Assembly (NCBI GenBank): GCA_017634475.1
Contig: JAGBNH010000101.1
Location: 1 to 44,312 of the forward strand
DNA: 44,312 bases
Direction of reading: 5' to 3'
Origin: Eubacterium sp.
Lineage (GTDB): Bacteria > Bacillota > Clostridia > Lachnospirales > Lachnospiraceae
The notes below the pieces were generated by a model that saw only the letters and a list, made by a program, of their open reading frames with translations, had not been told where the DNA came from and made no database searches. The translations under genes and the position numbers were made by a program. Shown in pieces: positions 1,904-30,708 of the stretch (within the stretch, counting starts at the first letter, position 1; each line of letters opens with the position of its first letter).

Positions 1904-2599
1904 TTATCGTATGACAGCTATAACCGTCCTAACTAATATAACCAAGTCATGAAGAAGTGTAAAGTGTTTTATATCCTTCAGGTTGTACTCCATTTTCTCC
2001 GGGAGGATGTGCTCCACATAGGCCCGGTCCACGGAAAGTCCCAGATCCGTGTACCTCCGGAGGGTCTCGTCCTCATCCCGGTACAGAACACTGGCAGTGG
2101 ATGTGACCCCTGCCGGAAGCAGCAGGGTCGCCCGCCATTCCGGGGCATACTGATGTACATACTCCGGCACCTCCGGCCGGGTTCCGGTAAAGGACATATC
2201 CCCCTTCAGAATGTTGAAGAGCTGGGGCAGTTCATCCAGCCTTAAGTCCCGGATCCTTCTCCCCACCCGGGTGATCCTGGGATCCCGGTCTGCGGTAAGC
2301 TTTGCTCCAAGCTGCTCCGCATCGGTCCGCATGGTTCGGAACTTACAGATACGAAAGTGTCTTCCGAAGGCTGTCACTCTCTCCTGCCGGAAAAAAACCG
2401 GTCCCGGAGAGTCCGTCCGGATCCAGATAGCGATCCCGAACATCACCGGGGCAAGAAGAAGAAGAAGGACAATCGATGCGAAGATATCAAATCCCCGTTT
2501 GAGAAGAAGCCTTCCCCGTCTGCGATATAAGATTTCATAATAAGGCCTCACCTCCGGACACTGAAGCTCCGGCGGCAGATCCTTCCAGGGTACGATCAT
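1904..2599 (-). CDS. Phosphoglycosyl transferase (bacterial sugar transferase, PglC/EpsL type)
   Basis: 231 residues from the preferred ATG at 2599, which has GAGAGG six bases upstream; an in-frame TTG at 2620 has no good ribosome site. It transfers a sugar-1-phosphate from a UDP-sugar to undecaprenyl phosphate, the first membrane step of repeat-unit assembly. Visible landmarks are the KRGFDI start of the domain, a single hydrophobic re-entrant helix (residues ~40-60), SPGPVFFRQERV, the KFRTM motif (86-90), the catalytic Asp-Glu pair in LDELPQL (D122, E123) and GTRPEVPEY. It has only the monotopic catalytic domain, like PglC, and not the extra membrane helices of WbaP. Because PglE-like and PglF-like functions are encoded nearby, a diamino-trideoxy sugar is a plausible substrate, but this is inference. 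Confidence 0.9.
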   Translation of the reverse strand: MIVPWKDLPPELQCPEVRPYYEILYRRRGRLLLKRGFDIFASIVLLLLLAPVMFGIAIWIRTDSPGPVFFRQERVTAFGRHFRICKFRTMRTDAEQLGAKLTADRDPRITRVGRRIRDLRLDELPQLFNILKGDMSFTGTRPEVPEYVHQYAPEWRATLLLPAGVTSTASVLYRDEDETLRRYTDLGLSVDRAYVEHILPEKMEYNLKDIKHFTLLHDLVILVRTVIAVIR

Positions 2600-2644
2600 C
2601 CTAAGCCTCTCTCTTTCCAATCCTACTGTGTGATATCGACCCGG

Positions 2645-2772: not shown

Positions 2773-3849
2773 TCAGTCAAACGTTCCCTGCATATCCGTG
2801 CTGGCGAAATCCGTTAACGGAAGCTTTACCGGGCAACCTTCCTTCATGCTTTTATAAATGGCCAGCACCAGCTCCAGGGCGTTCCGACCGGCCACCGCAT
2901 CCACATAAGGCTCACGATCCTCTTCGATGGCTTCGATCACATCCCGGAAAAGGCTTGTATGTCCATTGCCGTATACATTGCTGGTCTGTTCCTTCAGACC
3001 CTTATTTTCCTTATCTTCGTCCTTCTCATCCATGAAATCCCAGACGTCGATATTATTGGTAGAGGTTCCGCCGATCTTCACGGTTCCGGTCTGGCCGAAG
3101 ACATAGAGGGTCTCCTCCAGATTCCTCGGATAGACATTTACCGTCCCCTCAATGGTGGCAATAGCTCCGTTCTTAAAACGGACAAGCGCCATACCCACGT
3201 CTTCAGCCTCAAGATAAGGATGCTCCACCTGCCGGGTGAGTCCGTATACCGTATCCACCGCATCACCGAAGGTCCATCGCAAAAGATCGATCCCGTGGAT
3301 GCACTGGTTCATCAGCGTTCCGCCATCCTCGGCCCAGGTTCCCCGCCAGGGAGCCTGATCATAATAGTCCTTATTCCGGTTCCACCGGATATGGACAGAA
3401 CCATGGGAGAGGGTCCCGAAACGCCCGTCTTCCAGGGCCTTTCGCATCTTCTGTACCGCCACATTAAAGCGGTTCTGATGACAGGCGCTGACCTTAACGC
3501 CCTTCTTCCTTGAACGACGGATGATCTCCTCCGCATCGGAAATGGACATGGCCATGGGCTTCTCAATGATCACATGAATCCCCCGGTCAATGGCCTCCAG
3601 GGCGATCTCTGCGTGGGATCCGCTTTCCGTCGCGATACTTACCAGCTCCGGCTTCTCCTGATCCAGCAGTTCCTTATAATCCGTATATCTTCTGATCTTT
3701 GGATCCGACTGAAGGCCATGCTTTTCCAGCACCGCATCCATATGCTCCGACAGGACATCGCATACAGCAACGATCTCCAGTCCGTTATTTACAGCAGCCT
3801 TGATATGATTCGTGGAAATACGGCCGCAGCCGATCAACGCATAACGCAT
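2773..3849 (-). CDS. Gfo/Idh/MocA oxidoreductase, WbpB/WlbA-type (UDP-GlcNAc-uronate 3-dehydrogenase)
   Basis: 358 residues from ATG 3849, which has GAGGTG seven bases upstream and lies one base after the stop codon of the preceding gene. An upstream in-frame TTG overlaps that ribosome site and was not chosen. The N-terminal Rossmann fold shows MRYALIGCGRIS and VAVCDV, the family motif EKP lies at 96-98, and the catalytic-region His is in NQCIHGIDLLRW (H185). The CHQNRFNVAVQ and RWNRNKDYYDQAPWRGTW blocks resemble WlbA/WbpB enzymes, which oxidise C3 of UDP-GlcNAc-uronic acid. The upstream partner is a WbpA-type dehydrogenase that would supply the substrate, which strengthens the call. The matching aminotransferase could be one half of the fusion at 19952-22438 (inference). 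The last codons overlap a repeat array. Confidence 0.8.
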   Translation of the reverse strand: MRYALIGCGRISTNHIKAAVNNGLEIVAVCDVLSEHMDAVLEKHGLQSDPKIRRYTDYKELLDQEKPELVSIATESGSHAEIALEAIDRGIHVIIEKPMAMSISDAEEIIRRSRKKGVKVSACHQNRFNVAVQKMRKALEDGRFGTLSHGSVHIRWNRNKDYYDQAPWRGTWAEDGGTLMNQCIHGIDLLRWTFGDAVDTVYGLTRQVEHPYLEAEDVGMALVRFKNGAIATIEGTVNVYPRNLEETLYVFGQTGTVKIGGTSTNNIDVWDFMDEKDEDKENKGLKEQTSNVYGNGHTSLFRDVIEAIEEDREPYVDAVAGRNALELVLAIYKSMKEGCPVKLPLTDFASTDMQGTFD

Positions 3850-3850
3850 G

Positions 3851-5167
3851 TTACAGCACCTCAATATTCTCTCTCGGAGTGATATCTTTCATTACATTTT
3901 TCGTATCAAATATGGCAACGGCATTCTTCTGCACCATGGCATAATCCACATTGTGATGAGCCGCGGTCACCATGACCAGATCATAGCCCCTCACTACCTC
4001 GGGGGTAAGCTCGGGCAGCGACTCACCGCTGACACCATACATATTCTTAAACGAAGGAACCCAGGGATCGAAGTAGGAGACCTCAGCTCCCACCTTCAAC
4101 AGCTCCTTATATACCCGGATCGCCGGACTCTCCCGGTAATCATCGATATCATTTTTATAGGATACGCCCAGCAGCAGGACCTTCGCCCCGTTGATGGCCT
4201 TTTTGTGCCGGTTCAGGATATGCATGGCACGATCCACGCAGTACTCCGGCTGACTGTCATTGATCACCATACTGTTCTCGATCAGCGTGGTATGAAAGCC
4301 GTACTCCCTCGCCTTCCAGGTGAGATAATAGGGATCCAGTGGGATACAGTGTCCTCCCAGCCCCGGTCCCGGATAAAATGCCTGGAAGCCGTAGGGCTTG
4401 GTCTTCGCCGCATCGATAACTTCCCATACGGAAATGCCCATCTCATGACAGAGTCTTCCGATCTCGTTGATGAGACCGATATTGATATTCCGGTAGGTGT
4501 TCTCCAGGATCTTCTCCATCTCTGCAACCGCAGGAGAGGACACGGTGAAGACCTCACCCTCCAGCACTGCACGGTACATGGCAGAGATCACCTCACCGCC
4601 GTCCTTCGTCACAGCGCCTACCACCTTCGGAGTATTTTTTGTTTTATAGATCAGGTTGCCCGGATCCACACGCTCCGGACTGAAGCCCAGATAGAAGTCC
4701 CTTCCGCAGACAAGGCCGCTGCCCTCCTCCAGAAGAGGCTTGATCAGTTCCTCCGTGGTCCCCGGATAGGTGGTGGACTCCAGAACCACCATGGTTCCCT
4801 TCTTCAGATACCTGGAAATAGCCATCGTAGATTCACGTACATAACTGATGTCCGGTTCCTGATGGCTGTCCAGGGGCGTGGGTACACAGATCGCAACAAA
4901 GTCCACATCCCGGATAAAGCTGAAATCGGAGGTAGCACGAAGCTTTCCTGCCTTCACCAGCTCAGCCAGGTCCGAATCCACCACGTCACCGATATAATTA
5001 TGCCCGGCATTTACCATCTCCACCTTGGCGCTCTGTACATCGAACCCAATGGTGGTAAAGCCGGCCTTCGCCTTCTCCACCGCCAGAGGAAGTCCCACAT
5101 AACCAAGTCCCACAACGCCGGCCACCAATGTCCGGTCATTGATCTTCTGCAGCAATTCTTCTTTCAT
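3851..5167 (-). CDS. wbpA: UDP-N-acetylglucosamine 6-dehydrogenase (WbpA-type nucleotide sugar dehydrogenase)
   Basis: 438 residues. It would oxidise C6 of UDP-GlcNAc to the uronic acid with two NAD+, in the cytoplasm. The N-terminal NAD domain has GVVGLGYVGLPLAV (18-30); the central region has FSPERVDPGN and TPKVVGAVT; the catalytic cysteine is C274 in GGHCIPLDPYYL; the C-terminal UDP-binding domain has GVSYKNDIDDYRESPA. The LLQKI..RT start and PYGFQAFYPGPG block favour WbpA over WecC or Ugd. A GGAGG lies about 13 bases before the ATG, inside the end of the preceding glycosyltransferase gene, five bases from its stop. It is followed with almost no gap by the WbpB-type gene, so the two act as a pair. 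Confidence 0.85.
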   Translation of the reverse strand: MKEELLQKINDRTLVAGVVGLGYVGLPLAVEKAKAGFTTIGFDVQSAKVEMVNAGHNYIGDVVDSDLAELVKAGKLRATSDFSFIRDVDFVAICVPTPLDSHQEPDISYVRESTMAISRYLKKGTMVVLESTTYPGTTEELIKPLLEEGSGLVCGRDFYLGFSPERVDPGNLIYKTKNTPKVVGAVTKDGGEVISAMYRAVLEGEVFTVSSPAVAEMEKILENTYRNINIGLINEIGRLCHEMGISVWEVIDAAKTKPYGFQAFYPGPGLGGHCIPLDPYYLTWKAREYGFHTTLIENSMVINDSQPEYCVDRAMHILNRHKKAINGAKVLLLGVSYKNDIDDYRESPAIRVYKELLKVGAEVSYFDPWVPSFKNMYGVSGESLPELTPEVVRGYDLVMVTAAHHNVDYAMVQKNAVAIFDTKNVMKDITPRENIEVL

Positions 5168-10262: not shown

Positions 10263-10317
10263 ATATGTTTCCTTTTGTGCTAATGGATCTCGTGATCTGC
10301 AATGCTTCTTTCCGGAT

Positions 10318-11681: not shown

Positions 11682-13085
11682 CTGCTCACGCATCATATTT
11701 CTGAACCATACGCCTGTTTCCGACAGATCACTCACGGTCCAGCCGCTGTGCTTGGAACAGGAGCTTTTGATCAGTGCCGATGTTTCGTTCTTATTGCTCA
11801 GGGACCAGCAGGCATAGGACAGATTGTTATCTTTGATCACCTTTTTCCATGCTTCCGCAGAGCTATAGTCTATGGTTCCGCTTCCGTCGGATGCACAGAT
11901 GCTGCATTCCGTAATGAAAACGGGCGTTCCCGCTTTCCTGGCAGCCACCACCCGGTTCCGAAGGAATTCCCCATGGGTGGTTGCATAGAAATGTACAACA
12001 TACATGACGTTCTTCTTCAGTGCCACGGGATTTGCCGCCACCTGATCCACGCGCTGTGACCATTCCGGCGTACCTACGAGGATCACCGCATCATCATCAT
12101 TTTCCCGGATGATGGGAATGATGGTATCCGCATACTTCTTGATCTCGGCCCAGGTGGTACTGCCGTTGGGCTCGTTACAGATCTCATAAAGCACATTGTC
12201 ATAATTGGAATACTTGTAGGACATATCCGCAAAGAACTGTTTCGCCTCGTTCAGGTGATTATTGGGATTGTTGTCCTGAAGGATGTGCCAGTCGATGATG
12301 ATATACATTCCCAGCTGCGTGGCGTAGTTCACTGCATTTTCAATGGTTTTCTTCAGCGTCTCCGTCTGAACCTCGTCCCAGTCGATACAGTATCCGCCGT
12401 ATTCCTCCGTATAGACCGCAAGGCGGATCATATTCGCCTTCCAGTCGGTTTTCAGTGTGTTGAAGGCCTCCTTGTTGATGTTGTACCGTCCATCGTCCCA
12501 GATGATACCGAAGGTACTTGCGCCCTTAAGCTGCACCTTGGTCCCCTTGGAATTGCAGAGATCCGTTCCCACCACCTTCAGGGCCCCACCGTAAGCTACG
12601 GGAGACTTGGCCGGATAGGTCGGTACCGGAAGCTGTTGGGTCGCCGGCTTTACAATAGGCGATGTACTTGTTCTGGTTTTCGTCCATGCACCGGTTTTGT
12701 CCACGTAATACCTCCCGATCCATTGATTGGCCGCCATATATCCCCTTGCATCAAAGTAATAGCTCTTCCGGTCAATGGTCAGCCACTGGTTTTTGGGATA
12801 CCAGGAACCTGCCTGGAACCACCAGCCCGTACTGTTCACCTTCCAGCTGCCGTTCCACTTCGGTTCATACCAGCCTTTACTGTTCAGCCAGTAGCCCCCG
12901 ATGTACTCATTCTTTGCATAGGAGCCATCCGGGAACTGAAACCACCAGCCGCGGCTGTCCTTGATCCATTTGCCCTGTACCGCCGCTTCGCTCTCGGTGG
13001 ATGTCTGCCACAAAGTCAGCATTAGGATCACCAGTGCGAGCACCGCCATAAGGCCCTTCTTCATGCTCTTCTTTTTTGTCCCCAT
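11679..13085 (-). CDS. Secreted GH5 endoglucanase-like enzyme with N-terminal wall-binding repeats
   Basis: 468 residues. A signal peptide (about 1-35, ending ESEAA) is followed by repeats of the GWWF / GWYPKNQWL / YYFDARGYMA type (37-135), a Pro/Thr linker (~138-168) and a GH5 catalytic domain (~170-468). The acid/base Glu is E305 in YEICNEPNG and the nucleophile is E393 in FITECS; HFYATT (H365) fits the family's conserved His. Such enzymes cut beta-1,4-glucan or related backbones. Inside an export island, a wall-held glucanase often trims or releases the polymer, but its substrate here is not known. AAGGA lies about six bases before the ATG. The stop codon lies within the end of the palindromic element at 11551-11681. 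Confidence 0.88.
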   Translation of the reverse strand: MGTKKKSMKKGLMAVLALVILMLTLWQTSTESEAAVQGKWIKDSRGWWFQFPDGSYAKNEYIGGYWLNSKGWYEPKWNGSWKVNSTGWWFQAGSWYPKNQWLTIDRKSYYFDARGYMAANQWIGRYYVDKTGAWTKTRTSTSPIVKPATQQLPVPTYPAKSPVAYGGALKVVGTDLCNSKGTKVQLKGASTFGIIWDDGRYNINKEAFNTLKTDWKANMIRLAVYTEEYGGYCIDWDEVQTETLKKTIENAVNYATQLGMYIIIDWHILQDNNPNNHLNEAKQFFADMSYKYSNYDNVLYEICNEPNGSTTWAEIKKYADTIIPIIRENDDDAVILVGTPEWSQRVDQVAANPVALKKNVMYVVHFYATTHGEFLRNRVVAARKAGTPVFITECSICASDGSGTIDYSSAEAWKKVIKDNNLSYACWSLSNKNETSALIKSSCSKHSGWTVSDLSETGVWFRNMMREQ

Positions 13086-14652: not shown

Positions 14653-15696
14653 CTATACCATTTCCCAGGTGAGGATGGTATCTTCGGCCAGATCCTTCTT
14701 CACGGCCCGTCCGATGACGATATCCGTATACACCGGTGAAATGCCCGTTCCCGGCCGTTTCGGCATCAGGTCGGCAACCTGTATGATCTCTCCCGCCTTC
14801 ATATCCCGGGTCAGCACCAGGGAGCGTCTTGCCTCCCGTCTTGGTACCTGCTCGCAGGGAAGTACGGTTTTCTCCGGGGAACCCAGCACCGTGTCGATCC
14901 ACTTGAAGTTGGCGATGGCCTTCTTGAAATCCTCCGGATCTCCGGCGTGGTAATGATCATTTCCCGGCAGGGTCTTATCCAGGGTGTAATGCTTCTCGAT
15001 GACCTCCGCACCCAGGAGATAGGCCGTTGCCAGAGTCATCATGGTGTCATCCGGCGCCACATGATCACTGAAGCCCACCCGCACGTCCGGGAAGTCCTTC
15101 TTCAGCGTCTCGATGATCCGAAGATTTGCGTTCTCCGGCGCCGTGGGATAGGACAGAACACAGTGGAATACCACGATATCCCCGCATCCGGAATCCTTCA
15201 GTGCCCGAATGGCCTCGTCCACCTCGGAGAGGTAGGCGGCGCCTACGGAGATGTAAACCGGCTTACCCTTTGCACCGATATACCGGATAAAAGGCAGGTT
15301 GGACAGATCCGAGGATGAGATCTTATAGAAGTCCACCATATCCTCCAGATAGTCCGCAGAGGCGTAATCGAAGGGAGTGGAGGTAAAGTCCATACCCTTG
15401 CTGTGGGTGTAATCGCAAAGCTCCCGATACTCCGCCTCTCCGAAATGATCAAACTTCAGGAACAGCTCATACTGGGTCTTGGTAGCTTCCTTTGTAGTAT
15501 CCCAGTAGGCCGGTGAATTTTTGGAAACGATGGTCCCCGCCTTGTAGGACTGGAACTTGGCGCAGTCGATGCCTGCCTCCGCCGCCTTGTCGATATAGAG
15601 CTTTGCGGCCTCCAGCGGGGTAATGCCCATAACCCGGGCGGTGTCATAGAAATTAACTCCCATCTCGGCGATGAGATACGGTCTTGTGGTTCGCAT
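14653..15696 (-). CDS. neuB: NeuB-family nonulosonic acid synthase (sialic/legionaminic-type)
   Basis: 347 residues, the family's usual length. It would condense phosphoenolpyruvate with a six-carbon amino sugar to form a nine-carbon nonulosonic acid. The TIM-barrel part (about 1-280) shows IAEMGVNF (E11), AKFQSYKA, STPFD, KISSSD, HCVLSYPT, FSDH and EKHYTLD...GNDHYHA with candidate metal-binding His (H236, H248). The C-terminal SAF/antifreeze-like domain (~288-345) has ARRSLV and KRPGTGISP, a form closer to NeuB/LegI than to PseI. The exact product cannot be decided from sequence alone. AAGGAG lies seven bases before the ATG. It follows the cytidylyltransferase-PseG fusion gene in the same direction, as expected for one pathway. 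Confidence 0.88.
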   Translation of the reverse strand: MRTTRPYLIAEMGVNFYDTARVMGITPLEAAKLYIDKAAEAGIDCAKFQSYKAGTIVSKNSPAYWDTTKEATKTQYELFLKFDHFGEAEYRELCDYTHSKGMDFTSTPFDYASADYLEDMVDFYKISSSDLSNLPFIRYIGAKGKPVYISVGAAYLSEVDEAIRALKDSGCGDIVVFHCVLSYPTAPENANLRIIETLKKDFPDVRVGFSDHVAPDDTMMTLATAYLLGAEVIEKHYTLDKTLPGNDHYHAGDPEDFKKAIANFKWIDTVLGSPEKTVLPCEQVPRREARRSLVLTRDMKAGEIIQVADLMPKRPGTGISPVYTDIVIGRAVKKDLAEDTILTWEMV

Positions 15697-15771: not shown

Positions 15772-17373
15772 CTACAGATTCTCGATCAGTCCCATCACTC
15801 TCCGTCTTCCGCCCTTCAGATCATGCTTTAGCATGGTATCCTGGAAATGCTGGCGGCTGCTCCTGGAGAGCTCCAGATACATCCGGAGGTTACTCTCGAT
15901 GATCTCATCTGCAGGATCCAGGCCGATATAGGTAAAGCCGTTCTCGTTGCTGACGAAACCGTGACGTTCCTCCCGCTCATTCTGGGCCATGGCGATGGTG
16001 GGGATACCCAGGATCGCCAGCTCGTAGCCGGTACGTCCCCGTGAGGTAAGGGCCATATCGCATTTGGTCATCAGCTCCGGCATATTGGCCACATCATGGA
16101 AGACTTCGATATTCGGAAGCTCATTATACTTCATGAGCTGGTCCACATTTTGCTTGGCCCGTCCCAGGACCACAGTAAACTGAACGTTGCTGTATTCGGG
16201 CCTGGAAATGATGGCCAGGATCCTGTCCGTATAATTCCGCGGATCCGCTCCGCCGAAGGTTACCAGCACCCGCTCCACCTTCTCCCGGATGGGAATGGGA
16301 TTATACATAAGGAAGGTCTTTCCCGCGATATAATACTTCTCTCCCGCCCGAACCTGCGGAAGATCTGATTTGCTGTACAGGGCGTTGAACACCAGATCCG
16401 CCTTCATGACGCCCTCGCCGTCGTCTTCGAAATTTACGATCCTTGCCTTGGGGAGCACGGACCGAAGGCCGATCATGTAATCGATGGAGGTGGACAGGAT
16501 GTCATTGATCAGGATGTCATACTGTTTCTCCCTGCAGCGGTCGAAAAGCTCCGCGATACCGTTCACCGGGATCAATGTATGGGTGGTCTTCCCAAATACT
16601 GCAGGATCCGTCTGATTGGAATCATAATAAATGTCGGGCTTGGAGAAGAACTCATCCGCGATCTCCAGCGCACGGTAGATATGACCGGTTCCCCGCTGAT
16701 TGTTGCCGTTCACATAGATGGCCACCTTCTTCTGGTTCAGGGAAGCGGCAACCACCATAAGGTCCTGGAAATTATCCACATCCACGGATTCGTTCTCCGG
16801 CACCTCAAACACGTCCACCTTCTGGCCGATGCGGGTCTTCTCCGTCACCACGGAGGCTTTGGATACCACGAAGGCTCCGGTCTCCAGATAGTTCGGCGGA
16901 AGGTACTGACGGTTGAGACGCTCTTTATAATTCGGCACCTTCTTCCCGTCCTTTACTCCCCAGGACAGATGAGGCGCATTGATGGCTGAGATCAGCGTAT
17001 CCAGATCATTTTCAATGGCGTAGGCAATGGCCCGGTCCAGGGTATCCACCGAAAGGGTGGGGGATGTGGGCTGCATGGTGACCACATAGTCCCAGTCCAC
17101 GGAACGGTCCACCGCGTCGTCGATCACCGCATCCAGGGTGACCTCATCCCGGCAGAGGCGTTCGTCACGCCAGCGGACAGAGGCGCCCATCTGGGTGGCA
17201 ATGATCCTTACCGCATCGGAATCCGTGGTGACCACGGTATCCGTGATGTATTTCGAAGAGATCGCATTGTTGATGGAATAATAGATCAACGGTTTTCCGC
17301 CGATGATCCGGATATTCTTATTGGGTATTCCCTTTGATCCGGCCCTTGCCGGAATGACTGCAAGTATTCGCAT
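15772..17373 (-). CDS. Fusion of CMP-nonulosonate cytidylyltransferase (NeuA/PseF-like) and PseG-like UDP-sugar hydrolase
   Basis: 533 residues from ATG 17373, which has AGGAG seven bases upstream; an in-frame start ten codons earlier was not chosen. Residues 1-213 are a cytidylyltransferase: VIPARAGSKGIPNKN (CTP loop, 6-20), TDSDAV, MQPTSP (100-105), ETGAFVV and VDNFQDL. It would activate the nine-carbon sugar with CTP. Residues ~216-533 match PseG: the catalytic-loop GTGHIYRALEIA with H231, NFEDDGEG, VTFGGADPRN and SRGRTGYELAILGIPTIAM. PseG removes UDP from a 2,4-diamino-trideoxy sugar just before the synthase step. The fusion therefore carries the steps on either side of the synthase encoded by the next gene. 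Both domains look complete. Confidence 0.87.
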   Translation of the reverse strand: MRILAVIPARAGSKGIPNKNIRIIGGKPLIYYSINNAISSKYITDTVVTTDSDAVRIIATQMGASVRWRDERLCRDEVTLDAVIDDAVDRSVDWDYVVTMQPTSPTLSVDTLDRAIAYAIENDLDTLISAINAPHLSWGVKDGKKVPNYKERLNRQYLPPNYLETGAFVVSKASVVTEKTRIGQKVDVFEVPENESVDVDNFQDLMVVAASLNQKKVAIYVNGNNQRGTGHIYRALEIADEFFSKPDIYYDSNQTDPAVFGKTTHTLIPVNGIAELFDRCREKQYDILINDILSTSIDYMIGLRSVLPKARIVNFEDDGEGVMKADLVFNALYSKSDLPQVRAGEKYYIAGKTFLMYNPIPIREKVERVLVTFGGADPRNYTDRILAIISRPEYSNVQFTVVLGRAKQNVDQLMKYNELPNIEVFHDVANMPELMTKCDMALTSRGRTGYELAILGIPTIAMAQNEREERHGFVSNENGFTYIGLDPADEIIESNLRMYLELSRSSRQHFQDTMLKHDLKGGRRRVMGLIENL

Positions 17374-17430
17374 GTTGATTCTCCTGCATACAGATGAAAC
17401 CATCTGTTGATTATTTAAAGCCCCTGTGCA

Positions 17431-18606
17431 CTACAGGGCCCGGCTTTTCGACATCCTCTCCTTCGCTTTCAGGACGTCGGGAATAAGGATCAGCGCCAGG
17501 ATCACCACGGTAAGACGGTTAACGCCGAACACATGATCCGTTAGCCCGCGGAACATGAAGGCAAGGAGACTGAATACATAGACCCACATTTTCCTTCGGA
17601 TCCCCACCACGATGGCTCGGATCAGCATGCCCATCAGGAAAAGGAACCCGAAGATCCCCAGGAAGGCATGCACAAACAGATAGGAGTTATGCAGATTTCC
17701 TTTATAATGTACCACCCATCCCACTTCATAGAGCTCGGTGCCGAAGAGGAACCGCGTGACGGACATCATGGATTTCTCGATATATTCGGCCCAGCAGGCG
17801 AGACGTCCGCCGCCGTCCAGTCCCTTATCCAGGAACCGGGTCACCACGTACAGTCCGTTAAAGCGGCTGGCGAAAACCTGCAGCAGAAGGAACAGCAGGG
17901 GGATCAGGATCACCACCAGAAGGCATCCCAGCAGCACTCTCTCCCGCCTGGTCGCTTCATCCTCCAGATAACGGTGCAGGATGATGCCTCCCAGAAGGAT
18001 CGTTGCGGCAAGCAGGCCGCCCCGGCCTCCCGCCACAAGGCTGAGAACCCAGACCACGATCCCCGGGATCAGGGGGATCTTCTTTCCGCGGATATTCAGC
18101 AGGCTGTAATACAGCACGGCAGGTGCCAGAAGATGTACCGATACGTAGTTATTCGAGGCCTCCACATATACCGGAGCGGACAGCCCGTGCATGGCGATCT
18201 TTACTGCCACCACTGCGGCATTGAGATAAACGGCGATGAGAAATGCCCGCTCATCCGTCATGTCATCCAGCATCACCGCTGCCATGAGAAAGGACATGAA
18301 GAGGATCCCCGTTTTGATCCAGGTCATGTTCCCAACAAAGATCACATTGCAGGCGGCCAGCAGGAAGGAGCCCGCCGCATAGAGCAGCACCGGTTTCATG
18401 GTAAGGGCACGTTTCGTTGCAAAAAAGACCACTGCCGCCAGCGCCAGAACTCCGTAATAAAAGGCGCTGAAGATAATGCTCTTCACCTGGTTCACCGCAA
18501 TGATGGAAATGAAATATAACAGTCCCACCAGGGAGAAGGCCAGGCGCGGAAGGTCGATATAGCCGGCTTTCAGGTATTCAGTTTTCAGTAATTCTCTTTC
18601 TTTCAC
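17431..18606 (-). CDS. Wzy-like polysaccharide polymerase (O-antigen ligase/polymerase family)
   Basis: 391 residues with about ten or more hydrophobic membrane segments, beginning LPRLAFSLVGLLYFISIIAV and ending with a short basic tail. A larger extracytoplasmic loop around residues 240-300 (FLDKGLDGGGRLACWAEYI, HYKGNLHNSYLFVHAFLG) is the usual place of the conserved HNxYL-type motif (here LHNSYLF) of Wzy/WaaL proteins. It would join lipid-linked repeat units on the outer face of the membrane. The start codon is GTG (18604-18606) with a CGGGGAA-like ribosome site. It lies 15 bases from the preceding transferase gene, consistent with one operon. Primary sequence in this family is poorly conserved, so polymerase versus ligase is decided by context only. 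Confidence 0.75.
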   Translation of the reverse strand: MKERELLKTEYLKAGYIDLPRLAFSLVGLLYFISIIAVNQVKSIIFSAFYYGVLALAAVVFFATKRALTMKPVLLYAAGSFLLAACNVIFVGNMTWIKTGILFMSFLMAAVMLDDMTDERAFLIAVYLNAAVVAVKIAMHGLSAPVYVEASNNYVSVHLLAPAVLYYSLLNIRGKKIPLIPGIVVWVLSLVAGGRGGLLAATILLGGIILHRYLEDEATRRERVLLGCLLVVILIPLLFLLLQVFASRFNGLYVVTRFLDKGLDGGGRLACWAEYIEKSMMSVTRFLFGTELYEVGWVVHYKGNLHNSYLFVHAFLGIFGFLFLMGMLIRAIVVGIRRKMWVYVFSLLAFMFRGLTDHVFGVNRLTVVILALILIPDVLKAKERMSKSRAL

Positions 18607-18621: not shown

Positions 18622-19758
18622 TTAGATGGCCGACCGGATCTCCTGGATCAGCCGGTTCAGCTCCTCTTCGGAATCCGGTATGCACAGCCGACCGGGATCA
18701 CGATAGGTCTCTCTGGTGAGATCGAAGAAACGATCTCTGTCTGCATCATCCCCCTCCAGTCTGTGGAACAGGTGATACAGGAGAATGATCATGGGCTCTT
18801 CGTCCAGAAGCAGCTTCGGCATAATCGTGGCCGTGGAAAGCAGGGTGATCAGCACCATGTTCTTCGGCTCGGATGCCAGACAGGTCACTTCAAAGGGAAG
18901 AGTGGTATAGGGATAGGTGCGGATGGGATTCGCATACTCCCGGGTATCCCTGGGATGGCGTTTCACGATCACCTTATCCTCACCGAACTCTGCCTGCAGA
19001 CGATCATAGAGCTTGACGATCCGTTCATCATCCTCCGGGGAAAGCACAACCTCCTTCAGACAGTCCAGGATGATCACCGGTTCGGTGATCCCCTTCTCGG
19101 GCGTGATCTCGAACACTTCCTCGATCACCCGCCGAACCGTGGGATTGGCGTTGAAATTCGGAAGCTGGTACACCGGGATCTTATTCTCCGGATGCATTTT
19201 CATGAAGAGATCCGGGGAATACATATAATACCGGCGGCATCCCCGTAGCTTTTTTGTGCCCAGGATCACACGCTTGGCCATCTTGTCCAGGCTGCCGGTC
19301 CGGAAGATATCCTTGTTGTCGTAGCTTCCTTCTCCGTCGTCAAAGTAATAGATCTTCGTTTTGATATCCCTTTTGGAGAACCAGAGCATCAGCAGGTTCG
19401 CCAGAAAAACATTATGGGTGGCGTACATCCGCTCATAGGTTCTTCCGGGAAGCAGGATCTGGGCTGCGGTTTCATCGATATGCCGGTACAGGCTCAGGAT
19501 CGCCTTGATCCTCTCCTTCTTTCGCGGGGCTTCCCGCACCATCCGGATGGGGCGGATCCCCTCCAGGACCACCACCTCATGGAAGGCGCCGGTTTCCCGT
19601 ACCTTATCTCCGAGCTCGGCGGCCCCGTCAAACTGGGCGTCGATGTAAAGGTCTGCCCGTTCTTTGTTATTGATCACAAGGCTCAGTGCCGACATCACCT
19701 GAAAGGGTGTAGTACAGATGTACAGGGCATCCAGCCGGTTTTCTCTGGGTTCGTTCAT
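18622..19758 (-). CDS. Sialyltransferase-like glycosyltransferase (GT52-type)
   Basis: 378 residues with no membrane segment. It carries the marks shared by bacterial GT-B sialyltransferases: an N-terminal LYICTTPFQVMSAL (12-25), a D/E-D/E-G motif at D140-D141-G142 (YYFDDGEGSY), an HP motif at H268-P269 (VKRHPRD) and a Ser/Thr pair in LLSTATIMPKLL (308-309). These residues bind and activate CMP-activated nonulosonic acid donors. With a synthase and a cytidylyltransferase two genes downstream, the likely role is transfer of the CMP-nonulosonate to the repeat unit. Acceptor and linkage are unknown. AGGAAAG lies about eight bases before the ATG. The upstream spacer holds a tandem REP-like array. 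Confidence 0.8.
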   Translation of the reverse strand: MNEPRENRLDALYICTTPFQVMSALSLVINNKERADLYIDAQFDGAAELGDKVRETGAFHEVVVLEGIRPIRMVREAPRKKERIKAILSLYRHIDETAAQILLPGRTYERMYATHNVFLANLLMLWFSKRDIKTKIYYFDDGEGSYDNKDIFRTGSLDKMAKRVILGTKKLRGCRRYYMYSPDLFMKMHPENKIPVYQLPNFNANPTVRRVIEEVFEITPEKGITEPVIILDCLKEVVLSPEDDERIVKLYDRLQAEFGEDKVIVKRHPRDTREYANPIRTYPYTTLPFEVTCLASEPKNMVLITLLSTATIMPKLLLDEEPMIILLYHLFHRLEGDDADRDRFFDLTRETYRDPGRLCIPDSEEELNRLIQEIRSAI

Positions 19759-19951: not shown

Positions 19952-22438
19952 TCACTCGAAACATCTATGGATCAGCTCGATCACGACCTCCTGTTCGGTG
20001 GGGGTCATCTTGTTGTCACTGGGCAAGCAGAGGCCTCTCTCGAAGAGGTCGGTTCCCACATCGGAGATCTTCTTCTCTTCGATGTAGGCGTTGCTTCTGG
20101 CTCTTCCGTTTCCGGTGGCGGTGATGTAGGGATGGGACTGATAGATGGGCTGCAGATGCATGGGCTTCCACAGGGGCCGTCCCTCAGCGTTATAACGCTC
20201 CAGCGTATCCAGGATCTCCGAAGGGGAGCTCTTGCCCGGCTCGGTGAGATACAGCACATCCCGGTCTCCGCGGACATGTCTTGCCATTGCCTCGGGCCGG
20301 ATGGTGATGCAGGACAGCCAGAAGTTTGGCTCTGTGTAATCCAGGAAAGGATTCATATCCACAGGCAGGTCCTTCAGGCCTTCCTTGTAACGGTAATAGA
20401 TCTCCTTCTTCTGGGAAATGTGTTCCTCCAGATAGGGCAGCTGACCGCGGATCACGCCGGCGATGACGTTGCTCATCCTGTAGTTGTAACCCAGTTCCTC
20501 ATGCTGATACCAGGGCGCGTCTTCACGGCTCTGGGTGGACCATTTCCGAACCTTGTTGGCCAGCTCTTCATCATCCGTCAGCAGCATGCCGCCGCAGGAA
20601 CCGGTGATGATCTTGTTTCCGTTGGCGCTGAGGATACCTGAGGGTTCGCCGAAGCTTCCCGTCTGTCTTCCGCGGTAGGTGGCACCGAAGGACTCGGCCG
20701 CATCCTCCACGATCAGGGCACCATGCCGTTTGCAGATCTCACAGATCTCATCCATCTTGGCCGGAGTCCCGTACAGGTGGACCAGCATAACGATCTTTAC
20801 GTCCGGATAGATCCGGAAGGCATTCTCCAGAGCCACAGGATCCATATTCCAGGTATCCCGCTCGGAATCGATAAATACAGCCTCACCGCCTTCATAAGCG
20901 ATGGGGTTCACTGTTGCGTCAAAGGTCACATCCGAGCAGAACACCTTATGTCCTGCCAGAGCTCCGCGGATGGGATCCGCCTGGCCGTAAACCTGCTCGG
21001 CCGCAAGCTTAATGGCCAGATGCAGTGCGCCGGTTCCGGAGGAAAGACCCACACAGTATTTCCGTCCCACCTTCTCTGCCGTAAGCTTCTCCACCTCGTT
21101 GATGTTCTCACCCACAGTGGACATCCAGTTGGTGGCAAAGGCCTGCTGGATGTAGGCCATTTCCGGTCCGTGCATGGTGGGGGAAGAAAGCCATACCTTC
21201 TTCTCGAACCGTTTGATCTCTCTCTTCGCCCTGGGGGCGGGGGTTGCTCCCAGAACCTTCCCCAGGGAGCTGATCACATATTCCACCTCTTCATCCGTCA
21301 TGCAGGTATTGAGGGGCAGGGTGATCTCATTTTTATACTGATCGTAGGAATTCGGATAATCCTCCATCCGGAAGCCCTTGTTCTGATAAGCTGTATACAT
21401 GGGCAGCGGCTTATAATGCACATTGCAGGCCACCCCCAGTCCGGACATATCCTTGATCAGGGCATTTCTCTTCTTCTCATCGATGCCGTTCACACGGATC
21501 ATGTACAGATGCTTACTGGATTCCACGGAAGCCTCGGGAGACTGGATGCACTGGATCGGGAAATCCCGGAACGCCTCATTATACCGGTCTACGATCTCCT
21601 GCCGGCGATTCAGTGTAGAGGCATAACGCTCCAACTGGGTGAGTCCCGCTGCCGAAGCCATGTCCGTCATATTGCATTTATAACCGGGTTCCAGGATGTC
21701 ATATTCCCATCCCCCCAGCTGGGACTTCTCCAGAGCGTCCTTGCTCTGTCCGTGGAGGGTCATGACCATCAGCCTGCGGTAGATCTCGTCGTCCCTGATC
21801 CCCGGGATGCTCCGCCATACCAGGGCGCCGCCCTCGGCGGTGGTGAGATTCTTCACCGCATGGAAGGAAAATGTGGTAAAATCCGCGATCTCTCCGCACA
21901 TTTTGCCGTTCCGCTTTGCCCCGAAGCTGTGGGCGGAATCCGCAGTGACCACCACCCGTCCGATGGCTTCCTGGAGCTTGCCCACCGGATGGAACAGAGC
22001 CTTCTTCTCTTCCACAATCCGGAAGATCCGATCATAATCACAGACGATGCCGGCCAGATCCACGGGGATGATGGCCTTCGTCCGTTCGGTGATGGCATCC
22101 GCCAGCTTGTCGTAATCCATTTCGTAGGAATCCTTCTTCGTATCCACGAGAACAAGCGTAGCCCCCACATGGTAAACTACGCTTGCACTGGCTGTAAAGG
22201 TATAGGCCGAGGTGATCACCTCATCTCCGGGGCCGATGCCCAGGATACGGAGCGCCATCTCCAGACCGGCTGTTGCGGAAGTAAGGCAGACAGCCCTTGG
22301 GGTATGCACGTAAGACGCGATCTTCTCTTCAAAAAGCTTGGTCTTGGGCCCTGTGGTGATCCATCCGGAACGAAGTGCTTCCGAAACTGCAAGTATATCT
22401 GTCTCCCGGATATCCGGGGGTGAAAAAGGTACATTCAT
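19952..22438 (-). CDS. Tandem fusion of two DegT/DnrJ/EryC1/StrS sugar aminotransferases
   Basis: 828 residues, twice the usual ~380-400 for this PLP-dependent family. Domain 1 (1-396) begins VPFSPPDIRETDI and has GWITTGP, the PLP-region ADSAHSFGA (D167) and the Schiff-base lysine K196 in FHAVKNLTTAEGG. A short basic linker follows (397-414). Domain 2 (415-828) begins KVWLSSPTMHGPEMAYIQQA and has SSGTGALHLA, VEDAAESFGA (D579), lysine K609 in ANGNKIITGSCGG, and ELGYNYRMSNV, close to PglE (UDP-4-keto-6-deoxy-GlcNAc 4-aminotransferase). Both active sites look intact. AGAGGG lies seven bases before the ATG and a promoter lies upstream, so this is the first gene of the island. Domain 2 fits the dehydratase at 22605-24464; domain 1 might serve the WbpA/WbpB product or the nonulosonate pathway (inference). 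Confidence 0.88.
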   Translation of the reverse strand: MNVPFSPPDIRETDILAVSEALRSGWITTGPKTKLFEEKIASYVHTPRAVCLTSATAGLEMALRILGIGPGDEVITSAYTFTASASVVYHVGATLVLVDTKKDSYEMDYDKLADAITERTKAIIPVDLAGIVCDYDRIFRIVEEKKALFHPVGKLQEAIGRVVVTADSAHSFGAKRNGKMCGEIADFTTFSFHAVKNLTTAEGGALVWRSIPGIRDDEIYRRLMVMTLHGQSKDALEKSQLGGWEYDILEPGYKCNMTDMASAAGLTQLERYASTLNRRQEIVDRYNEAFRDFPIQCIQSPEASVESSKHLYMIRVNGIDEKKRNALIKDMSGLGVACNVHYKPLPMYTAYQNKGFRMEDYPNSYDQYKNEITLPLNTCMTDEEVEYVISSLGKVLGATPAPRAKREIKRFEKKVWLSSPTMHGPEMAYIQQAFATNWMSTVGENINEVEKLTAEKVGRKYCVGLSSGTGALHLAIKLAAEQVYGQADPIRGALAGHKVFCSDVTFDATVNPIAYEGGEAVFIDSERDTWNMDPVALENAFRIYPDVKIVMLVHLYGTPAKMDEICEICKRHGALIVEDAAESFGATYRGRQTGSFGEPSGILSANGNKIITGSCGGMLLTDDEELANKVRKWSTQSREDAPWYQHEELGYNYRMSNVIAGVIRGQLPYLEEHISQKKEIYYRYKEGLKDLPVDMNPFLDYTEPNFWLSCITIRPEAMARHVRGDRDVLYLTEPGKSSPSEILDTLERYNAEGRPLWKPMHLQPIYQSHPYITATGNGRARSNAYIEEKKISDVGTDLFERGLCLPSDNKMTPTEQEVVIELIHRCFE

Positions 22439-22512: not shown

Positions 22513-22555
22513 AAAAAAGAAAGATCCGCCCCACATTTTCGGGACAGATCTTTCT
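22513..22555 (-). terminator. Rho-independent terminator after the 4,6-dehydratase gene
   Basis: On the minus strand a stem formed by AGAAAGATCTGTCCC and GGGGCGGATCTTTCT (one G-T pair and minor mismatch) is followed by a T6 run (plus-strand A run at 22513-22518). It lies about 50 bases past the stop of the dehydratase gene and separates that unit from the island promoter. Confidence 0.85.
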
Positions 22556-22604: not shown

Positions 22605-24464
22605 TCAGTTTTCCTTCTGCTGCGGATGATAGGTAGGCACCATACGCTGTACCACCTCACGGATATCGTAGGGTTCCTGCACCACATACTCGCTGAGCTT
22701 CTCCAGATCCTCCAGGAACTTGTCCTCATCCATCTCAATGGGCTTTCCGATGTGGATCAGCTTGTTGGCCGTATCCTGCATGCCCTCTTCTTTCATGAGC
22801 ATCTCTTCATACAGCTTCTCTCCCGGCCGGAGTCCGGTAAATACGATCTTGATATCTTCATCCGGCTTATGTCCGGAAAGCAGGATCAGGTTGCGGGCCA
22901 GATCCAGGATCTTCACCGGTTCACCCATGTCCAGCACGAAGATCTCACCGCCCTTGGCATAGGCTCCCGCCTGAAGCACCAGGGATACCGCTTCGGGAAT
23001 GGTCATGAAGTACCGGATGATGTCCGGATGGGTGACCGTCACCGGTCCGCCCTCGGCGATCTGCTTCTTGAAGAGCGGGATCACGCTTCCGTTGGAACCC
23101 AGCACATTTCCGAAACGCACAGCCACGAAATTGGTCTCGGAGATCTTGTCATAGGTCTGAATGATCATCTCGCAGATCCGTTTGGAGGCTCCCATGATGT
23201 TGGTGGGGTTCACGGCCTTATCGGTAGAGATCATCACAAATTTCTTTACCTTCCAATGGTCTGCGGCCCGGACGATCTTCCAGGTACCCAGCACATTGTT
23301 CTTGATGGCCTCATTGGGGCTGTCCTCCATCAGCGGTACATGCTTATGGGCAGCCGCATGGTAGACGATATCGGGACGATAGGTCTCGAAGATCTGATCG
23401 ATACGCTTTGTATTCCGGACAGAGGCAATGAGCACCACCAGATCCAGATCCGGATAGGTCTTTCTCAGCTCGTTCTGTACATCATAGGTGGTATTCTCAT
23501 AAATGTCGATGATGATGAGCTGCTTCGGCTGATGACCGGCGATCTGCCGGCACAGCTCGCTTCCGATGGAGCCGCCTCCGCCGGTTACCACCACCACCTT
23601 ATCCTTTACGTACCCCATGATGGAATCGATATTTACCTGAATGGGCTCACGTCCCAGCAGGTCGTTCACATCCACCTCGCGAAGATCGGTGACCCGCACC
23701 TCTCCCGTAACAAGCTGATAGATACCGGGCATCTTCTTCAGTTCACAGCCGGTCTCCTTGCAGATCTGCAGGATGTCATGGATCTCTGTGGACTTGGCGG
23801 AAGGCATGGCAAGAATGATCTCCTCTGCCCGGAGCTTCTCTGCCATTTTCGGGATATCATGCCGAGTACCCACAACCTTTACGCCGTGGATATAATTTCC
23901 TACCTTGCCGGGGTTATCATCAATAACGCCCACGGCCTTCATGGGCAGAAGACGGCTGTTCTTGATCTCGCGGATCAGTTCATTTCCCGCTTCACCGGCT
24001 CCAATCACCAGCACCCGCTTCTTCTCCTGCTTGTTGGTGGATACCTTCTTGGACACGGCAAAAAAGGTCTTGTAGAAATACCGGCTGATCAGGGTCAGTG
24101 CCAGCAGGAATACGAAGAACAGGATATAATAGCTTCGCGGAAGAGGAACCGTCACATCCTTGTTCAGCAGCATGACCGCCGCCATGTTGAGGAGGCTGGC
24201 CACCGCACAGGACAGGACGATATTAAAGAATTCCGTGGCACCGGCGTAGGTCCACAGACTGGTATACAGTCTGAGCATAAAGAACACGAATACCGTGATC
24301 AGGATCGTTGCCCAGAGGTTCTTCTTCATGACGGACAGATACTCGTCCGGCACCCGGGAGAACTGCAGGTCAAAGCGCATGAGAAGCGCAAGGACGCTGG
24401 CCGCCGCCACCGCCGCCACGTCATATATGATCAGAAACAGTTTTGTCAGAAGATTCTTCTTCAT
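22605..24464 (-). CDS. Membrane-bound UDP-GlcNAc 4,6-dehydratase (PglF/CapD/WbpM type)
   Basis: 619 residues. Four hydrophobic segments within residues ~8-130 anchor it in the membrane. A CoA-binding-like Rossmann domain follows (VLVIGAGEAGNEL, 151-163), then the SDR catalytic domain with TGGGGSIGS (294-302), HAAAHKHVP, STDKAVNP (413-420) and GASKR with K428. The enzyme removes water from UDP-GlcNAc to give UDP-4-keto-6-deoxy-GlcNAc, the substrate of PglE-type aminotransferases, one of which is fused in the next gene. It is the last gene before a strong terminator and lies 34 bases from CvpA, so it seems co-transcribed with leuA and the three genes between, not with the island it serves. The 5-epimerising PseB type is unlikely, since PseB is short and soluble. 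Confidence 0.9.
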   Translation of the reverse strand: MKKNLLTKLFLIIYDVAAVAAASVLALLMRFDLQFSRVPDEYLSVMKKNLWATILITVFVFFMLRLYTSLWTYAGATEFFNIVLSCAVASLLNMAAVMLLNKDVTVPLPRSYYILFFVFLLALTLISRYFYKTFFAVSKKVSTNKQEKKRVLVIGAGEAGNELIREIKNSRLLPMKAVGVIDDNPGKVGNYIHGVKVVGTRHDIPKMAEKLRAEEIILAMPSAKSTEIHDILQICKETGCELKKMPGIYQLVTGEVRVTDLREVDVNDLLGREPIQVNIDSIMGYVKDKVVVVTGGGGSIGSELCRQIAGHQPKQLIIIDIYENTTYDVQNELRKTYPDLDLVVLIASVRNTKRIDQIFETYRPDIVYHAAAHKHVPLMEDSPNEAIKNNVLGTWKIVRAADHWKVKKFVMISTDKAVNPTNIMGASKRICEMIIQTYDKISETNFVAVRFGNVLGSNGSVIPLFKKQIAEGGPVTVTHPDIIRYFMTIPEAVSLVLQAGAYAKGGEIFVLDMGEPVKILDLARNLILLSGHKPDEDIKIVFTGLRPGEKLYEEMLMKEEGMQDTANKLIHIGKPIEMDEDKFLEDLEKLSEYVVQEPYDIREVVQRMVPTYHPQQKEN

Positions 24465-28327: not shown

Positions 28328-30010
28328 CTATTTCACATTCTCGGCAATAAGCGATTTGTTCACCGCTGAAATAAGAGCGTATGTAGAAGCAACAATGATG
28401 TCATCCTGTATGCCTGCACCCCAGTATACCTTACCGGACCCGGTCATCTGGATCCCCACGTAAGCACAGGCCTTGGAATTCGATCCTCTGGTGATCGCGT
28501 GCTCTTCGTAGGTGATCAGCGAATAGTCGATGTGGAAATGCCGCTTCAGTGCGTTACTGATGGCATCCAGACGACCATTGCCCTGTCCGTGATATACCTT
28601 ATGAACCCCGTTCCTCTCCAGTGTGATCTCACAGCGGATACCATCGATCTGCTGGAAATGGCACTCCAGATATTTTATAGGGGAATCAAGGTTTACATAA
28701 TCCTGCTTAAACAGTTCCACAACCTCATCCGGCTTCAGTTCCTTATGCTGATGATCGGAATAGCCCTTTATGGCATATCCCACATCCTCCTTCATGGCCT
28801 TGGGAAGCAGGAAACCATACTTGGTCTCCAGCAGGAAGCCGATACCTCCCTTTCCGGACTGGCTGTTGATCCGTATCACATCTCCGTCGTAGGTCCTTCC
28901 GATATCCTCCGGATTTAACGGCAGATAAGGAACGGTCCACATCTGATCGGGATCCTCCTCACGCCACTTCATTCCCTTGGCGATGGCGTCCTGATGTGAT
29001 CCGGAAAATGCAGCGAAGACCAGTTTTCCGCAGTAGGGTTCGCGGGGATAGATCTCCATTCCGGTGAGACGCTCGTAGGTTGCCTGAATCCTGGGCATAT
29101 CCGAGAAGTCCAGCTCAGGATCTACACCGTGGGTATACATATTCATGGCAAGTGTGATCACATCCACATTTCCGGTACGCTCTCCATTTCCGAAGAGGGT
29201 TCCCTCGATACGGTCAGCCCCTGCCAAAAGTCCCAGCTCCGCATCCGCTACGCCGCAGCCGCGGTCATTGTGAGGATGAAGGGAAAGAACCACATTTTCG
29301 CGGTACTTCATATTCTTATGGAAATACTCGATCTGACTTGCATATACATGCGGAAGAGACATTTCCACCGTGGCCGGAAGGTTGATGATGGCCGTCCGGT
29401 CCGGGGTAGGCTGCCATACGTCCAGTACGGCGTTCACCACTTCCAGTGCATACTCCGGCTCGGTTCCGGTAAAGCTTTCCGGACTGTACTCGAAACGATA
29501 GGGCGCACCGTCTTCATCTGCGAGACGCTTCAGAAGCTCTGCTCCGTCGGTGGCGATCTTCTTGATCTCATCCTTTGATTTCTTAAATACCTGCTCCCGC
29601 TGTGCGACTGAGGTTGAGTTATAGACATGAACGATAACATTCCTGGGATTTGCTCCCCGAACGGCCTCGAAGGTCTTCTTGATGATGTGCTCTCTTGCCT
29701 GGGTCAGTACCTGAATGGTCACATCCTCGGGGATCAGGTCATCCTCGATCAGACGACGGCAGAATTCGTATTCCGTTTCGCTGGCTGCGGGGAAACCGAT
29801 CTCGATCTCCTTAAAGCCTACCCGGATCAGTTCTTTATAGAATTCGATCTTCTCATCCAGACTCATGGGAACCACCAGCGCCTGGTTACCGTCCCGCAGG
29901 TCTACGGAGCACCATATCGGTGCATGATCGACATATTCCTTGTTCACCCAGTCCGTGCACGGAACCGGCGGCATATAATAGCCTCTTCTGTAATGCTCGA
30001 AATTCTTCAT
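28328..30010 (-). CDS. leuA: 2-isopropylmalate synthase
   Basis: 560 residues from ATG 30010, with GGAGG eight bases upstream; the in-frame TTG at 30025 overlaps that site. It condenses 2-oxoisovalerate with acetyl-CoA, the first committed step of leucine synthesis. The catalytic TIM barrel has DLRDGNQAL (R39, D40, Q43), EIGFPAAS, the metal-binding HPHNDRG, and GNGERTGN (the family's GxGERxGN). The C-terminal leucine-binding regulatory domain follows (about 420-560; ECHFQQIDGIRCEITLERNG, TRGSNSKACAYVGIQM). Length and start match the actinobacterial-type (LeuA type 2) enzymes. A leucine T-box lies upstream, separated from the gene by about 330 bases of repeats. Confidence 0.93.
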   Translation of the reverse strand: MKNFEHYRRGYYMPPVPCTDWVNKEYVDHAPIWCSVDLRDGNQALVVPMSLDEKIEFYKELIRVGFKEIEIGFPAASETEYEFCRRLIEDDLIPEDVTIQVLTQAREHIIKKTFEAVRGANPRNVIVHVYNSTSVAQREQVFKKSKDEIKKIATDGAELLKRLADEDGAPYRFEYSPESFTGTEPEYALEVVNAVLDVWQPTPDRTAIINLPATVEMSLPHVYASQIEYFHKNMKYRENVVLSLHPHNDRGCGVADAELGLLAGADRIEGTLFGNGERTGNVDVITLAMNMYTHGVDPELDFSDMPRIQATYERLTGMEIYPREPYCGKLVFAAFSGSHQDAIAKGMKWREEDPDQMWTVPYLPLNPEDIGRTYDGDVIRINSQSGKGGIGFLLETKYGFLLPKAMKEDVGYAIKGYSDHQHKELKPDEVVELFKQDYVNLDSPIKYLECHFQQIDGIRCEITLERNGVHKVYHGQGNGRLDAISNALKRHFHIDYSLITYEEHAITRGSNSKACAYVGIQMTGSGKVYWGAGIQDDIIVASTYALISAVNKSLIAENVK

Positions 30011-30068
30011 GATGTCAACCTCCAATCTATTATTCTACTATATTGTGTATAATTTAGCAACCTATCAT

Positions 30069-30224
30069 TCGCCATGCCTGCGTACGCTTCGCCATGCCAA
30101 CATCGACCTCCGCTTCGCTCCCGTCGATGTTGCGGCTTCGCCCCCGTCGGTGTTGCGGCGATCACAGCATTCGCCATGCCAACATCGACCTCCGCTTCGC
30201 TCCCGTCGATGTTGCGGCTTCGCC
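30069..30224. repeat. Structured repeats left of the 30.2-kb hairpin
   Basis: A 55-bp unit beginning TTCGCCATGCCAACATCG occurs at 30088-30142 and again, unchanged, at 30170-30224 (82 bp apart), with partial starts at about 30069 (TTCGCCATGCC) and a diverged end near 30144 (CGTCGGTGTTGCGG). Each full unit folds by the pair CAACATCGAC / GTCGATGTTG. The block lies between leuA and its T-box. Confidence 0.75.
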
Positions 30225-30353
30225 GTATACATCTTCGTAGTCATTGTTTTGCCTGCAAGCAAGCTTGCGCAAAACAATGACTACGAAGATGTGCATGGCT
30301 CATTGGACGCACAAAACAATGACAACGAAGATGTGCATGGCTCATTGGACGCA
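30205..30353. mobile_element. MITE-like palindromic element, second copy, with 42-bp tandem duplication
   Basis: A perfect long stem (arms 30230-30251 and 30270-30291) is capped by GCAAGC AA GCTTGC. Left flank GTCGATGTTGCGGCTTCG followed by CCGTATA and right flank TGCATGGCTCATTG match those of the element at 11584-11684, but the stem sequence itself is unrelated. The right arm plus flank (30270-30311) is duplicated in tandem at 30312-30353 with one base change. No coding capacity. It lies between the leucine T-box terminator and leuA. Confidence 0.65.
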
Positions 30354-30354
30354 C

Positions 30355-30650: not shown

Positions 30651-30656
30651 AATGTA

Positions 30657-30685: not shown

Positions 30686-30708
30686 GACTCAATTTTGCTT
30701 TTTCACTG

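Follow-up and report, generated by a model that had tools for sequence, protein, structure and literature searches.

The first sugar of the mitis-group teichoic acid is 2-acetamido-4-amino-2,4,6-trideoxygalactose (AATGal), supplied via Spr0092, Spr1654 and Spr1655 (PMC4649388). Spr1654 is a homodimer whose active sites are shared between subunits, and the paper on it names residues for the cofactor and for a modelled uridine diphosphate (UDP)-AATGal, some of which come from the partner subunit (PMC5936713). In the WcfR/WcfS system of Bacteroides fragilis capsule A, WcfR forms UDP-AATGal by aminating the PglF product, and AATGal-phosphate is then transferred by an initiating transferase (PMC13063421). 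PglE and PglF together yield UDP-2-acetamido-4-amino-2,4,6-trideoxy-D-glucose (PMC8040287). Here we analysed a 44,312-nucleotide stretch of Eubacterium sp. (assembly GCA_017634475.1, contig JAGBNH010000101.1), called the window, in which one gene joins two DegT-family aminotransferases in a single 828-residue chain, its N-half resembling Spr1654 and its C-half resembling PglE. We consider this fusion to be, with fair probability, a bifunctional UDP-sugar C4-aminotransferase that makes two C4 epimers from a single 4-keto sugar to supply two initiating phosphoglycosyltransferases (PGTs). The reactions and families are already known. Neither their combination in one chain, which probably creates a stereochemical fork, nor any other double or fused enzyme of the DegT family was found in the open-licence literature searched, which is no proof that none is in print.

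The minus strand of the gene reads through 828 residues with no stop, and the plus strand is interrupted by stops in the frame shown. The first-pass annotation, made from the sequence letters, had described two complete DegT aminotransferases in one chain without naming the strand. Pfam marked two DegT stretches in the chain, and a separate domain search of each half agreed, the N-half reaching 318.5 bits and the C-half 234.2 bits against the Pfam DegT cut-off of 19.8 bits (PF01041). The Schiff-base lysines of pyridoxal 5'-phosphate (PLP) and the PLP-N1 aspartates that it had named (K196/D167 and K609/D579) were correctly placed and are kept in all 13 fusions found. Mean pairwise identity among the fusions is 0.774 in the N-half, 0.848 in the C-half and 0.574 in the linker between them. 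Within codons 386-425, the sole start codon common to all 13 is ATG 422, which lies inside the C domain; since none in the linker is shared, the two halves are most probably translated together as a single chain. An AlphaFold2 model of the full chain, built on a 21-sequence alignment (A2), was poor (mean pLDDT, the predicted local distance difference test, 70.4; predicted template modelling score 0.55) and uninformative on domain packing and on the heterodimer that, according to the first-pass annotation, the fusion may mimic.

Comparison with known structures placed the halves in different subgroups, as the first-pass annotation had proposed. The best Protein Data Bank match of the N-half was 6ewj (Spr1654 of Streptococcus pneumoniae) at 512.9 bits, with 391 residues aligned without a gap across both insertions that mark Spr1654; the next structures were an ArnB at 203.5 bits and 2fn6 at 136.1 bits, whose sister entry 2fnu is PseC. 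When the Spr1654 residue numbers were transferred through the 6ewj alignment, the ligand and cofactor residues G25, I27, H170, S191, H193, Q231, K233, K238, Y246, N339, H341 and Y342 were found in 13 of 13 fusions. Four of these (G25, I27, Q231 and Y246) correspond to Gly28, Ile30, Gln234 and Tyr249, which Spr1654 draws from the partner subunit. They are also kept in standalone N-type relatives, and their retention fits a pairing of N-half with N-half. The counterpart of Spr1654 Tyr84 is F81 in 12 of the 13 fusions (Phe as in PseC) and Tyr in the remaining one (G025; labels of genomes, contigs and loci are ours). The locus also has the same trio as the Spr1654 system, namely a dehydratase, an aminotransferase and an initiating transferase. 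Spr1654 is a standalone homodimer, whereas the domain here shares its chain with another aminotransferase; in both cases the product is a prediction. WcfR and WcfS are likewise separate genes, and the likeness to the fusion noted here is one of the described reaction.

The best structural match of the C-half was 1o61 (216.6 bits), which, together with 4ztc, we take to be PglE of Campylobacter jejuni; the lysine number, 184, fits. The C-half keeps the Gly and Tyr219 of PglE as G607, two residues before the lysine, and Y644, and both are invariant in alignments A1 (10 fusions) and A2 (21 rows). This supports the earlier view that the second half is PglE-like. In PglE, the Gly and Tyr219 set the mode of binding (PMC8040287). 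PglE is the closest structure to the C-half, but it is a standalone enzyme, the match is just 216.6 bits, and no PglD-type acetyltransferase scored above cut-off here.

The full-length fusion is present in 13 of the 61 genomes of the genus, namely its own genome and 12 others at 77-83% identity; one of the latter (G446) is the same record as locus L053 (CADAXW010000047.1, Lachnospiraceae RUG13730) and was counted a single time. Beyond the genus, overlapping samples of the order (392 genomes), family (397) and phylum (398) showed no full-length fusion, and L053 was the only one among the best 80 loci of the contig scan. In the plasmid search, none appeared in the 20 records listed out of 1028, and the best match was below 60% identity in all 1028. 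Unfused genes of the N-type and of the C-type are frequent in the order sample, and a scan of viral contigs for N-type relatives returned 53 loci; in an alignment deepened with such single-domain N-type rows, MAFFT placed them onto the C-half of the fusions.

The relationship of the fused halves to standalone enzymes was examined in an aminotransferase tree of 96 rows, made by a quick method with 29 of the 88 standalone C-type rows and 14 fusion rows per half (L053 and L296 being the same record). Of the 43 N-type rows listed for the order sample, 20 were taken, together with three from G043, G049 and G370. All fused N-halves group in one clade and all fused C-halves in a second; both clades have a Shimodaira-Hasegawa-like approximate likelihood ratio test (SH-aLRT) support of 100 and nest within the standalone N-type and C-type groups, respectively. 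Since each half falls in a single clade, the tree shows that two old paralogues were joined once, in a single old fusion event. Internal or tandem gene duplication was rejected because the halves lie in distant clades. Unfused arrangements were also seen. In G429 the order is dehydratase, broken C-type fragment (L293, G429:C13, about 10628-11239, without the PLP lysine), intact N-type gene and PGT-A, and in G370 intact N-type and C-type genes stand back to back. Two C-type genes occur in locus L082, and likewise on contig G437:C37 (L299 and L300).

We looked for an initiating PGT within 1.8 kb downstream of standalone aminotransferase genes and found one at 27 of 28 N-type loci (that of L244 lies farther off) and at 55 C-type loci; 18 C-type loci, some on cut contigs, had no PGT match, and at further C-type loci the PGT was out of reach. 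By best match, the N-type neighbours were 22 PGT-A and 5 PGT-B, and the C-type neighbours 0 PGT-A and 55 PGT-B (non-independence of the rows makes the Fisher value a guide only). Sixteen PGT rows, including that of N-type L244, were labelled "other" and kept out of this table because they were upstream, more than 1.8 kb away or not next to a gene of either type. A PGT tree, from which L056 and L261 were omitted as too short, gave a PGT-A clade of 29 rows (SH-aLRT 99): 22 are N-adjacent, out of 26 in all, six come from fusion genomes (the window's among them) and one is L244; none of the 54 C-adjacent rows fell in it. A separate 70-row clade (SH-aLRT 95) contained most C-adjacent rows (49 of 54), together with the five PGTs that stand beside fusions and another five from fusion genomes. 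N-type genes are thus paired with PGT-A and C-type genes with PGT-B in their neighbourhoods, which offers a testable guide to interpreting clusters in this bacterial order.

Within the genus, PGT-A at 60% identity or more occurs in 11 of 13 fusion genomes and in none of the 48 others, and PGT-B at the same threshold in 12 of 13 and 1 of 48. At 44% or more, PGT-A was found in 7 of 11 genomes with N-type genes only, 2 of 8 with C-type genes only and 4 of 29 with neither; the corresponding counts for PGT-B at 54% or more were 0 of 11, 4 of 8 and 0 of 29. The joint presence of PGT-A and PGT-B was used beforehand to predict the fusion in G440, G446 and G448, and it was present in all three; two of these count as new, the fusion of G446 being already known as L053.

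From these results we infer which substrate the fusion uses, what each half makes of it, that each product is used by its own PGT and that like halves pair. The neighbouring membrane dehydratase would form UDP-4-keto-6-deoxy-N-acetylglucosamine (UDP-4-keto-6-deoxy-GlcNAc) and is likely the source of the shared substrate; in the 12 sister loci that were read, its gene is the one immediately upstream of the fusion gene, truncated where the contig stops in G025 and G446. The first-pass annotation had linked the fusion to this ketone, and our analysis supports the link. From the family assignment of each half, both are predicted to act on this one ketone to give opposite C4 epimers: the Spr1654-type N-half would aminate it to the D-galacto epimer, UDP-AATGal, and the PglE/LegC-type C-half to the D-gluco epimer, a bacillosamine precursor. 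The two products would then feed two initiators: PGT-A, encoded in the window, and PGT-B, whose gene either neighbours the fusion or lies at another place in the genome. In this way a single chain may provide two surface polymers with their starting sugars. The nonulosonate genes may draw on some of either product as well, and the halves would pair as N:N and C:C. If this is correct, an amino-sugar branch point is built into a single enzyme with two C4 aminotransferases of opposite stereochemistry, and two initiating transferases, hence two surface polymers, are tied to one gene.

Several observations weigh against this proposal. UDP-AATGal as the product of Spr1654 is itself a prediction, not assayed with its substrate (PMC5936713). 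The best NCBIfam models are PseC (TIGR03588) for the N-half and LegC (TIGR04181) for the C-half, yet each half alone stays below the cut-off (307.4 bits against 423.5 and 279.4 bits against 420), and the names PseC and LegC were rejected for them. The whole chain does exceed both cut-offs, with 471 bits for PseC and 436.8 for LegC, because the scores of two domains are summed; such sub-threshold sums may cause fusions of this kind to be misnamed. In the window, a terminator-like hairpin separates the dehydratase from the fusion, which therefore may not share every transcript; five such sites were seen in the stretch versus 4.1 expected from shuffles, and this one has the longest stem. A search for PglD/NeuD acetyltransferases gave matches in 13 of 13 fusion genomes, none above cut-off. 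The pairing with PGTs is also imperfect. Four of the 26 N-adjacent PGTs lie outside the PGT-A clade and form another clade, PGT-A-like genes at 44-50% identity occur in six genus genomes without an N-type match (two of them with a standalone C-type gene), and only the 7 of 11 N-only and 4 of 8 C-only genomes given above carry the expected PGT. PGT-A was not found in two of the 13 fusion genomes (G010, 75% complete, and G019, 85%), and the window genome's own PGT-B is just 46% identical to the reference PGT-B. Finally, both newly predicted genomes sit inside the fusion clade and the PGT rows are related by descent, so that kinship explains part of the agreement.

An unlikely alternative is that one half is catalytic and the other mainly a structural or regulatory partner in an intramolecular pseudo-dimer. 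Active sites of this family draw residues from two subunits, as in the Spr1654 homodimer (PMC5936713), which makes such an arrangement conceivable. However, the lysine and aspartate of both halves are intact in 13 of 13 fusions, and the N-half retains the partner-subunit residues of its own family. The median ratio of nonsynonymous to synonymous substitution rates is low in both halves, 0.093 in the N-half (defined in 69 of 78 pairs) and 0.072 in the C-half (73 of 78), indicating that both are kept by purifying selection; in the linker it is 0.26 (42 of 78).

We regard as rather improbable a division of labour in which both halves use the same ketone but the nonulosonic acid genes (PseFG and NeuB) receive most of one product and the other starts a polymer. 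NeuB, PseFG and a polysialyltransferase-like gene do follow the fusion in the window, G020, G035, G446/L053 and G448, but the fusion loci of G002, G011, G017 and G036 showed no NeuB or PseFG like those of the window, indicating that the fusion is independent of nonulosonic acid, and the lack of a PglD/NeuD-type acetyltransferase above cut-off also argues against this scheme. A further and doubtful idea, to which we give little weight, is that the fusion acts as a PLP-based C4-amine epimerase, in which reversible amination would convert the D-galacto form into the D-gluco form and back via the shared 4-keto sugar, and would also determine in what proportion the starters of two surface polymers are made.

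Another suggestion of the first-pass annotation was a split between two routes, with the C4 ketone as substrate of one half and the 3-keto uronate of WbpA and WbpB as substrate of the other. Genes resembling WbpA and WbpB are present in the window, but neither half is near WbpE: its structures match the N-half at about 89 bits and the C-half at about 105 bits. A separate DegT enzyme of the same genome (G000:C115) matches WbpE (3nyu) at 354.6 bits, and five sister genomes (G002, G017, G035, G036 and G446) carry counterparts of it, at 72-76% identity, within their PGT-A clusters; WbpA and WbpB are also found in that cluster in G002, G017, G036 and G446, the contig of G035 ending first. Because of the low scores of the halves and the separate WbpE-like enzyme, service of the 3-keto uronate was rejected as very improbable. 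For the annotation's other suggestion, that the halves may act in series at C4 and at a further position, no supporting evidence turned up. That an assembly error or frameshift joined two genes, which the annotation had raised as a possible refutation and in favour of which we found nothing, is virtually excluded, since the same 828-codon open reading frame occurs in independent assemblies of 13 genomes, including G002, a single contig scored 100% complete, and ten of the fusions align without gaps.

The preferred reading, a C4-aminotransferase with two products, has to be seen within the remainder of the locus, whose features are collected in Table 1. On the minus strand of the window the gene order is dehydratase, fusion, polysialyltransferase-like gene, Wzy-like gene, PseF-PseG-like fusion, NeuB and a 457-residue gene, followed by further genes including choline-binding-repeat proteins, a glycosyltransferase, the WbpA-like and WbpB-like genes and PGT-A. 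The 457-residue gene, which has no Pfam match, is presumably Wzz-like. The combination of the synthetase-PseG-like fusion, NeuB and a PglF-type dehydratase without a PglD/NeuD-type acetyltransferase above cut-off would represent an unusual nonulosonic acid route. In G446, the fusion, LicD, the nonulosonate genes, WbpA, WbpB, PGT-A and the WbpE-like gene are all on one 35-kb contig.

Table 1. Positions of the fusion, its parts and the surrounding features in the window
Feature	Position	Strand	Basis
Initiating PGT, PGT-A clade	1904..2620	-	Tree, 29-row clade, SH-aLRT 99
GFO/IDH/MocA oxidoreductase, WbpB-like	2773..3864	-	UDP-GlcNAc 3-dehydrogenase model 133.9 bits, below cut-off 450
Nucleotide-sugar 6-dehydrogenase, WbpA-like	3851..5167	-	TIGR03026 418.4 bits, cut-off 189.8
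NeuB-type nonulosonate synthase	14653..15696	-	PF03102 239.5 bits, cut-off 22.1
Cytidine monophosphate (CMP)-nonulosonate synthetase and PseG-like hydrolase, fused	15772..17403	-	TIGR03584 and TIGR03590 both below cut-off; PF02348 above cut-off
Wzy-like polymerase, weak match	17431..18606	-	PF04932 24.1 bits, below cut-off 31.7
Alpha-2,8-polysialyltransferase-like glycosyltransferase	18622..19758	-	PF07388 26.0 bits, cut-off 23.3
Fused double DegT aminotransferase, 828 residues	19952..22438	-	Translation; 13/61 genus genomes; substitution-rate ratios
C-half, residues 413-828, PglE/LegC-like, probable UDP-4-amino-4,6-dideoxy-GlcNAc-forming aminotransferase	19955..21202	-	1o61 match; G607, Y644
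K609 codon (C-half)	20612-20614	-	
Linker, residues 397-412	21203..21250	-	Less conserved, no start codon common to all fusions
N-half, residues 1-396, Spr1654-like, probable UDP-AATGal-forming aminotransferase	21251..22438	-	6ewj match
K196 codon (N-half)	21851-21853	-	
Terminator-like hairpin between dehydratase and fusion	22518..22555	-	16-pair stem and T run
Membrane nucleotide-sugar 4,6-dehydratase (PglF/Spr0092 type)	22605..24464	-	PF02719 410.9 bits

LicD-like genes were seen at the fusion loci L034-L041, L053 and L295. A gene resembling the LicD-family gene of L034 stands at the fusion locus in 10 of the 12 sister genomes, either adjacent or within about 6 kb; the Pfam test was made for the L034 gene, and the others were assigned by similarity to it. 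No LicD-like gene was found in the window, which carries choline-binding-repeat proteins at 6452-10264, 10449-11471, 11679-13085 and 41714-44149. The genus may perhaps make a phosphocholine-bearing, teichoic-acid-like polymer, LicD, choline-binding repeats and a putative AATGal-type starter together bearing a resemblance to the mitis-group teichoic acid pathway (PMC4649388). In the CAP-domain protein at 10449-11471, the final choline-binding repeat ends in unlike residues, as though the frame were lost near the end. Elsewhere in the window, the interval 29900-30800 contains an exact 55-nucleotide direct repeat, a 42-nucleotide tandem pair and a 31-nucleotide inverted repeat between two genes that we take to be LeuA-like and MATE-like.

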